Shown piece after piece: positions 58,401 to 58,693 of a DNA stretch of 64,000 bases. The stretch spans positions 1 to 64,000 of the forward strand of contig JAJECP010000020.1 in NCBI GenBank assembly GCA_022821985.1, read 5' to 3'. Under the pieces are notes generated by a model, which was not told where the DNA came from, searched no databases, and worked only from the letters and a program-made list of their open reading frames with translations. Both the position numbers and the translations under genes were made by a program. Positions within the stretch are counted from its first letter, which is position 1, and every line of letters begins with the position of its first letter. The stretch is from Acidimicrobiia bacterium. GTDB lineage: Bacteria; Actinomycetota; Acidimicrobiia; Acidimicrobiales; Poriferisodalaceae.

Positions 58401-58693
58401 TCGAAGACATCGCTTCGTCGGTAGCTGCACCGAGAGAGAGAGAGAGAGAGAGAGAGAGAGAGAGAAGGCCCCCGGATCACGGTCGCAACGCTCATCAATC
58501 ACAAAGGCTGGGTGTTCGAGGGAGTACACAACTCCTACACGGTGGCTCTGGTCACTGTCACGCGCAGCTCACGGTTGTCACCTGCCTCAACACCAAGCAG
58601 TGGACATTCGACGACGTCGACGGTCGGTACACGATCGCCCTCGTCGCGGCGCGCAAGCGCAGTCGGGCAGCCGAGCCATGGGGGTGGCTTTGA
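55472..58693 (+). CDS. Eco57I-type adenine methyltransferase/restriction protein, 5' part ending in frameshift at (GA)17
   Basis: As sequenced, 1,073 codons are read. Residues ~1-540 form an uncharacterised N-terminal region with a restriction-like alpha/beta segment (VDWVVLTRASEIRLYSA). The methyltransferase domain begins at GSYFTKPFAVEHLL (~557). A motif-I-like DIAMGSAHFL (~609-618) follows, then the catalytic NPPW (860-863) in CLIGNPPWEQV. From residue ~987 the frame runs into RERERE from the (GA)17 tract, and everything after is out of frame until the stop at 58693. Changing the tract by +1 or -2 units would fuse it to 58512-59903, giving about 1,477 residues. NPPW indicates N6-adenine methylation. 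It resembles type IIG, PglX or DrmMI enzymes. The copy here is read as phase-OFF or frameshifted. Confidence 0.85.
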   Translation: MEEFLIDRVPQTWTAPSGFPNSLAAVQLFVQPGRNGLEVAVATATRKPTVADLRAAWAARRNKRAAPVLLIVFYPSPEASGGECVALCGPTGDHPVPHLDVEVSQAERLADVALSEPNHHAATRLLMAALPELDSPFPGLHNSGLLATQELTAGVPLRPDWASARGDAAPLLGKRGRRLIEGLGYEIATLATNASILMIAGRREAIAVFCDDSEPFEAPSDRFDGMSPVSRALALADRENVDWVVLTRASEIRLYSARPGIGVGRKGRAETFVELNLSLLASEQAGYLGLLFSAAAIAHGGSLHEILDDSERFAAALAVRLRERVYHKTVPALAQAVAARLSHDTPTGGISETVLDDAYEQVMVILFRLLFVAYAEDKDLLPYRSNGRYADHSLSRMAQRLADDEHNARTHFDKRATDMWDDVCGLWDAVNEGNADWGVPTYNGGLFSEDPKVSPTGAAIAQLRLTNAEFGPALAAALVDHGPQGLGPVDFRSLSVREFGTIYEGLLESKLSAAPDDLTVKRVKGDLQYVPAGANDDVEVEAGEVYFHNRSGTRKATGSYFTKPFAVEHLLDHALEPALDDHLARLDAWREADDDAGVAAAFFDFRCADIAMGSAHFLVAAVDRIEARLSAWLSLHPVPAITAELNRLRNVAMDELGDLGDGIEIETGSLLRRQIARHCVYGVDKNRVAVELARLAIWVHTFVPGLPLSFLDHNLVHGDSLTGVGTLDEVVAAFDADADPAAPSLFRSQLIGLLENAEDALQRLAHTSDASKHEIDEARTAHTDARAAVAGAQAAFDVITAHRAGVCDLPENFDPAVVVKLAADPQVRDEITRLMPVHFPAAFPEVFLRERPGFDCLIGNPPWEQVVVQEHVWWGMHLPGIRGQSVNKMNAAIEGFRRQRPDLEAAFGLELDYAERMRSLLRQVFERMGSGRTDFYQAFAWRNLDLTAEGGQFGLVLPNTATQAAGMTNWRHQIVGVEDIASSVAAPRERERERERERRPPDHGRNAHQSQRLGVRGSTQLLHGGSGHCHAQLTVVTCLNTKQWTFDDVDGRYTIALVAARKRSRAAEPWGWL
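58432..58465 (+). repeat. (GA)17 simple-sequence repeat inside the methyltransferase gene
   Basis: Seventeen uninterrupted GA units sit between the methyltransferase core and its C-terminal region. The upstream frame begins codons at positions congruent to 2 mod 3, whereas the sensible downstream frame uses positions congruent to 0. One added unit (or two lost) would align them. This is a classic slipped-strand contingency-locus layout. Confidence 0.95.
58488..58645 (+). repeat. Duplicated 22-codon motif in two different reading frames
   Basis: Copy A (58488-58553, frame 0) and copy B (58580-58645, frame 2) each encode 22 residues without gaps. They share T-x-x-N-x-K-x-W-x-F-x-x-V-x-x-x-YT-x-ALV, 11 identical positions by eye. 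The 92-nt offset places them in different frames. Only copy A is in frame with the long downstream frame. Confidence 0.75.

Follow-up and report, generated by a model that had tools for sequence, protein, structure and literature searches.

Phase variation is usually viewed as an arrangement in which one reading frame is good and two are dead, and the locus described here raises the question of whether a long repeat within a restriction gene turns that gene on and off or chooses among versions of its enzyme. The locus lies in a window of 64,000 nt (contig JAJECP010000020.1, positions 1 to 64,000, forward strand) from an assembly of an Acidimicrobiia bacterium (GCA_022821985.1; 3.31 Mb in 41 contigs, 89.9% complete). 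The original prediction placed a (GA)17 tract at 58432–58465 in a methyltransferase gene whose upstream frame (2) ended at 58693 and whose frame 0 ran on to 59903, and took the tract for a plausible ON/OFF switch, out of frame as sequenced. The tract was recovered exactly by repeat scan, and the frame arithmetic was correct on three-frame reading. From comparison with its relatives at the sequence level, the gene is probably a Type IIG-like restriction-modification gene in which several tracts select among enzyme variants.

Layout of the gene and its neighbours

The gene starts at an ATG at 55472 on the plus strand, in frame 2. Its N-terminal region and Eco57I-type adenine methyltransferase (NPPW) occupy 55472–58431 and end at tract 1; Eco57I (E 2.5e-14) was the sole Pfam call in this part. 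The PADLOC model PDLC03620 (Type IIG) hit both halves of the gene, the upstream half at E 9.1e-196 and the frame 0 part at E 4.5e-54, and the order of an NPPW adenine methyltransferase followed by a recognition domain is that of a Type IIG enzyme. In tract-less homologues the two parts are fused in one polypeptide, and in many relatives the recognition domain is out of frame with the segment before it. The upstream frame closes at a TGA (58691–58693), frame 0 is open through to a TGA at 59901–59903, and frame 1, the third frame, is closed by a TAG at 58717–58719.

Tract 1, (GA)17, is followed by two versions of one methyltransferase segment, A1 (INHKGWVFEGVHNSYTVAL; 58476–58562, frame 0) and A2 (CLNTKQWTFDDVDGRYTIAL plus its TGA stop; 58568–58693, frame 2), the second ending in a putative prfB-like frameshift signal (GGGGG-TGG-CTT-TGA, 58680–58693) at which a +1 shift would lead into frame 0. 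Segment V (FETSADEPHVAIYPGPARS..., 58689–58925, frame 0), delimited by a third-position phase scan, ends at tract 2, a run of 11 C at 58926–58936 found by repeat scan. Three tiles, located by patterns, come next: B1 (N type, QGDLNAT; 58949–59011, frame 2, with the frame's stop at 59111–59113), B2 (H type, AELHAT; 59014–59076, frame 1, with a stop at 59128–59130 that overlaps an ATG at 59127) and B3 (D type, RELDAT; 59079–59141, frame 0), which runs on into the C-terminal recognition domain (TRD, 59127–59903, the part hit by PDLC03620 in frame 0). The domain is thus fused to B3 and has a possible start of its own at ATG 59127. As sequenced, the tract lengths of the window put A2 in frame, and frame 0 behind the prfB-like signal has no stop through C11, tile B3 and the recognition domain. 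A match of S-subunit type in the homologous part of one tract-less homologue (G137) supports the TRD assignment; no solved structure with a sequence match to this homologue was found at E 0.01.

Downstream, at 59994–63695 on the plus strand, lies a gene for a PLD-like and SNF2 helicase protein (Pfam, PADLOC) that is DrmD-like; DrmMI/DrmD-like similarity was seen by PADLOC for the methyltransferase gene and this neighbour together. Among the 31 loci whose downstream sequence exceeded 2.5 kb, 29 had a relative of the neighbour there (G255 and G209 gave no match), and it was retained beside tract-less and tract-bearing relatives alike; it is possibly the restriction partner. On the other side, an HNH protein (53572–55194, minus strand) matched an IscB model at E 2.6e-10, its 39.9 bits falling well short of the curated threshold of 175.

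Repeat tracts among the relatives

Matches to the gene were obtained in 33 of 298 genomes (E ≤ 1e-60) and 35 of 397 genomes (E ≤ 1e-100), two overlapping sets, and 38 fetched loci with the window made up a comparison set of 39 sequences. Partial or paralogous matches (G242, G072, G130:C69) and matches of 33–35% identity were not taken further; among these L039 alone was checked, for tracts only, and this paralogue (33% identical) had none. Five of the fetched loci (G002, G327a, G403, G154, G073) end before the tiles. The seven publicly named loci belong to Acidimicrobiia or Acidimicrobiaceae MAGs (Actinomycetota).

Tracts were defined as at least 8 single bases, at least 5 pairs or at least 4 longer units downstream of the conserved methyltransferase part, and at least one was found in 31 of the 39 sequences. 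Site 1, near +30 past the methyltransferase part and corresponding to tract 1, carried G8–G21, GA9–GA19, CT9, (GCCGA)10 or (AACAG)11; site 2, at about +300 to +640, carried units of C, G, CT/TC, GA, GCCGA, CGAGC, CCGA, CGGT/CGGA, CAGC, CCGAC or CCCAG. A fixed place with a repeatedly swapped repeat unit argues for selection on the tract itself. Six of the eight tract-less sequences (G137, G120, G192, G385, G239, G134) are continuous and have a single B segment ahead of the recognition domain. G163, more distant than any of the others, is likewise continuous, and B and WPVYKG were unrecognised there. Tiles are present in G122 without a long tract. In a single-contig genome (L117, G582) the B region is disrupted and the long tract absent, and another locus (L086, G403) has 50 consecutive G at site 2, near a contig end.

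Within the window, the longest other dinucleotide run has at most 4 units, apart from the AG phase of the same (GA)17 run, which is also the sole GA run of at least 10 units across the 3.31 Mb assembly. Both (GA)17 and C11 are long coding repeats of units that are not a multiple of 3, as in phase-variable genes. Length change in such tracts is best seen in two genomes assigned to different species, neither of them that of the window (G185 and G234), whose loci from -2826 to +6000 (about 8.8 kb) are separated by one substitution and by a length change in each of the three tracts (G11/G9, CT14/CT11 and G12/G11). A single substitution beside three unequal tracts is strong evidence for slippage, which we regard as well supported in the gene family from these sequences. 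Further upstream (-3200 to -2827) the same pair has 59 differing positions and two gaps, so that the near-identical stretch was probably the subject of a recent exchange. The site 1 phase differs between the two. A third relative (G358), whose methyltransferase part is 99.25% identical, has tracts of G6, CT18 and G22.

Segment versions in successive frames

A1 and A2 (CLNTKQWxFDxVDGRYTxAL) were spaced 92 bp apart in all 25 genes with A2 (23 by pattern and two more by reading), a distance that puts them in different frames. When the phases at site 1 were read by hand in these 25 genes, the window included, A1 was in phase in 9, A2 in 4 and neither in 12. The third frame is ended by a TAG at one common place in 22 of the 25; the Val codon that makes this TAG is GTA in most genes, a codon used for 81 of the 1,059 Val residues of the methyltransferase part. 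From these sequences, the third frame closed by TAG looks like the true dead end.

At site 2, the segment leading into the recognition domain occurs in types N (QGD[LF]NAT), H (AE[LF]HAT) and D (RE[FL]DAT). At least two tiles were found in 26 genes (three or more in 19, two in 7; range two to five copies), with spacings of 65 bp (36 cases), 71 bp (9 cases) and 50 and 44 bp (once each). In all 47 cases the spacing left a remainder of 2 on division by 3, so three tiles occupy all three frames. Among 74 tiles, stops were met in the own frame in 3, in the +1 frame in 34 and in the +2 frame in 6. The same types stand alone in single-copy homologues, with QGDLN or QGDFN in G137 and G120, AEFH in G134 and REFD or RELD in L112 and L114; other versions found in single copy were LGDLH (G239), RELN (G385) and LEFS (G192). 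In one locus (L097, G372) there are five tiles (one N, one H and three of D type), with spacings of 65 or 71 bp.

By DNA comparison, 69 of 71 tiles had a tile of their own type as nearest neighbour, and none had a sister tile of the same gene. Beyond the five core residues, likeness between sister tiles was 0.656, against 0.649 for same-type tiles of other genes, so some exchange between sisters is likely, with the core residues staying distinct. Tile-to-tile recombination as the main switch was considered and is not preferred, given type identity over long distances and sister tiles that are never nearest; a protein and DNA search found no recombination donor copies elsewhere in the assembly. 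Hand reading of 27 genes put an N tile in phase in 6, H in 4, D in 11 (with G001 counted by eye as D-like) and none in 6; each of these last six has just two tiles, and they make up all but one of the seven two-tile genes.

Selection on these segments was measured as pN/pS over 19 to 22 distinct sequences per segment (G001, G193a, G089 and G130 excluded). Own-frame values were 0.34 for A1, 0.32 for A2, 0.26 for N, 0.40 for H and 0.40 for D, and in the two other frames the five segments gave 0.89 to 1.91 (A1 1.5/1.9, A2 1.4/1.9). As the relatives are non-independent, the counts given throughout this comparison overstate certainty. As the segments had been collected by motif patterns, which biases pN downward, the test was repeated without patterns on MAFFT alignments of three groups of relatives (7, 5 and 4 genes), the phase with the most differences being taken as the third codon position. 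Going downstream, the selected phase moved from the upstream frame to that of A1, then to that of A2, back to the A1 frame, and on through the tiles to the recognition domain; windows at borders were ambiguous, and the last tile was blurred in G388, G311, G373 and G261, whose tile orders differ. Selection at the protein level on each version, in the frame that encodes it, appears well supported.

Possible routes to the recognition domain and competing readings

The end of the A2 frame matched GG[GA]GG-TGG-C[TC]T-TGA in 23 of the 25 genes with A2: 19 with GGGGG and CTT, 1 with GGAGG and CTT, and 3 with CCT. In the two without the signal, one (G255) has no stop at this place and the other (G233) stops earlier, the A2 stop lying in its own frame. 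Counting as prfB-like a Shine-Dalgarno-like run, a 3-nt spacer, CTT and TGA, 20 of the 25 genes qualified, including the window. A publicly named locus outside the 25 (L044, VYBO01000043.1) has A1, A2, a signal of the CCT form, three tiles and an overlapping start. In 357 kb of loci, gene strand, the pattern was found elsewhere once, in G372. A +1 shift at the signal would enter the frame under selection in the following part, V (FE..., VAIYPGP). The signal follows in part from the amino acids coded in the V frame, which weighs against the selector reading. In favour of the signal, the Phe codon that forms CTT-TGA is TTT in 20 of the 21 genes with Phe there (four genes have Leu), and TTT makes up 77 of the 499 Phe codons in the methyltransferase part.

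The G run of Shine-Dalgarno type, the 3-nt spacer and CTT TGA resemble the programmed +1 frameshift site of prfB, whose consensus is given as AGGGGG, 3 nt and CTTTGA in the portion of the survey available to us (PMC12421855). Unlike that site, the present one sits in a restriction gene, in a phylum whose prfB, according to the same portion, lacks the signal in all 2,658 Actinomycetota surveyed (PMC12421855), and TGA is followed mostly by G here, in prfB by C. The signal was also looked for in the window genome's own prfB and was absent. The B. subtilis prfB signal placed in one actinomycete gave about 6% frameshifting, as stated in that portion (PMC12421855). These points speak against the frameshift, and a gene in the A2 phase may accordingly yield little product. 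In the selector reading, +1 frameshifting would operate in this organism. Within the B tiles, no frameshift signal was recognised by eye.

A second route may be a restart. ATGA or GTGA within 24 nt ahead of WPVYKG, in the frame of the recognition domain, was present in 19 of 24 tract- or tile-bearing genes and in 0 of 6 tract-less ones (hand count); the five without it at this distance were the window (ATGA at 45 bases), G004, G009, G007 and G003. The TGA of the overlap closes one tile's frame in most of these genes. One group (the window, G004, G388, G373, G311, G310, G193a, G130, G261 and G089) has its last tile fused to the domain, and that tile stops at the domain's start codon in others (e.g. 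G185, G234, G256, G255, G372, G122 and G279); in G233 it is the first tile that is fused. Several relatives have two of three B frames stopping at least 40 bases ahead of the recognition domain, and their products would need a restart, a point that counts against the selector reading. A short Shine-Dalgarno-like stretch lay upstream of 10 of 12 starts, the window and G255 being the exceptions, a count made with no chance control. Restart at the overlapping start codon may work.

Recognition domains also occur in tandem, two in G185, G234, G256, G327b, G209 and G372 and three in G255. Each except the last has a run of G10–G24 ahead of its conserved tail (the tail of the second domain in G372 was unmatched by pattern), and in G185, G327b and G209 a shifted-frame stop was seen by eye at the start of the second domain's reading frame. 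Tandem domains were 68–88% identical over the part compared. Between the window and G009, the recognition domain is 61% identical and the upstream proteins 83%.

These results leave the phase-variable methyltransferase of the original prediction standing in part. The hypermutable tract and the Type IIG-like gene held, as seen in the G185 and G234 pair and in the presence of all three site 1 phases among the 25 genes. A plain ON/OFF switch found in its OFF state gained no support in that form: the phase present in the window reads the conserved segment A2 and terminates at a prfB-like signal leading into frame 0. The second tract and the out-of-frame tiled segments would set the rest of the protein. 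In the fuller form of the selector reading, which we hold tentatively at somewhat under an even chance, versions would be coded as alleles in successive frames and picked by tract length, with one phase rescued by the prfB-like +1 frameshift; one locus, with its two to three tracts and up to three recognition domains, could then yield a combinatorial set of enzymes without recombination. In the selector reading held above as probable, tract 1 would fix the frame that enters the last strands of the methyltransferase core. In one phase A1 would be read directly; in another A2 would be read, and a +1 ribosomal frameshift at CUU-UGA would be required to go on; the third, closed by TAG, would be OFF. 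As the copies sit in successive frames, tract 2 would choose the N, H or D version of the segment entering the recognition domain, which would be fused to it or else translated separately, as a second polypeptide, from the start codon overlapping the upstream stop. In some lineages extra recognition domains would be picked by a third, poly-G tract. The versions would differ in activity or DNA target.

Were the gene a plain ON/OFF switch with one working phase and two off, the out-of-frame copies would be leftovers of duplication. Three relatives with a single unbroken frame over the whole gene (G261, G233, G310) fit this, and Cj0031 of Campylobacter jejuni behaves so in the passages available (PMC4889913). 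Leftovers should drift, yet the copies are conserved, each in its own frame; their spacing remainder is constant despite length changes, and the tile types equal natural versions of homologues, so we consider this explanation unlikely. The copies might instead serve frame tolerance alone, making tract 2 a harmless linker of variable length, with the variants alike in function. Three copies do cover every frame, the tracts encode repetitive linkers (e.g. SLSLSL or RAEPS), and the tiles are similar beyond five residues; against this, those five core residues are type-specific even across distant genes, and 6 of the 7 two-tile genes sit in the uncovered phase, and we give this explanation a small chance.

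An artefact of assembly or sequencing, or a decaying pseudogene, appears very improbable. The assembly is a draft, and for six tract-bearing relatives the contig breaks off no more than 1.5 kb past the conserved methyltransferase part. The arrangement nevertheless recurs in other assemblies, the named L044 among them, with the site 2 part present in a one-contig genome (G089), the neighbour gene is conserved, and all segments are under purifying selection; it is the selection in every segment and the recurrence across assemblies that decide against this reading. A selector of variants remains the preferred reading.

Haemophilus lic1A-type genes have starts in several frames, and tract length gives graded output beyond on and off. 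Their alternatives lie at the start codon; those of the window gene lie inside the coding part, as versions of protein segments. Closer in enzyme type is JHP1272 / HP1353-HP1354 of Helicobacter pylori (Hpy99XIV, HpyAXVI), a Type IIG enzyme likewise with two repeat tracts, the first acting ON/OFF and the second on specificity, as described in the available passages (PMC3936762). In that enzyme a C-terminal domain is present or absent depending on the second tract, unlike in the window gene, and the same passages describe no out-of-frame segment copies, frameshift signal or ladder of recognition domains such as the window-gene family has (PMC3936762). Cj0031, also Type IIG, has conserved methyltransferase and TaqI_C-like regions flanking its tract, as here; in the passages available that tract is a lone G tract, missing in many homologues, whose slippage breaks the gene into two frames, and it acts ON/OFF only (PMC4889913). 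One methyltransferase with alternative recognition domains recalls those Type I systems that have more than one hsdS gene or TRD (PMC7394358, PMC3936762). Type I systems of this kind switch by recombination or by separate S genes; the window-gene family would use slippage and stop/start overlap. Phase variation, translational coupling and recoding of the prfB type are treated as separate classes in the available part of a survey of reading-frame transitions (PMC3711429).

In open-licence papers, no description was found of protein segments arranged in successive frames after a tract, or of phase variation of a restriction gene combined with a frameshift signal. Frame tiling as a principle would be new: the frames otherwise taken as dead appear to be used here, which would be a new means of storing and choosing protein variants. 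The family would also provide an example of a multi-tract defence-type gene from uncultured bacteria, and would place a prfB-like signal in a phylum whose prfB reportedly has none, as far as the available portion of that survey goes (PMC12421855). Such genes are likely to be marked as broken by automatic annotation.

Across the window's own genome, with the other contigs (L148–L156) searched and the C11 tract included, 14 G/C runs of at least 10 were found at 10 places. At four of these places the runs form pairs 50–210 bp apart, and several lie close to contig ends. The genome may hold several phase-variable loci.
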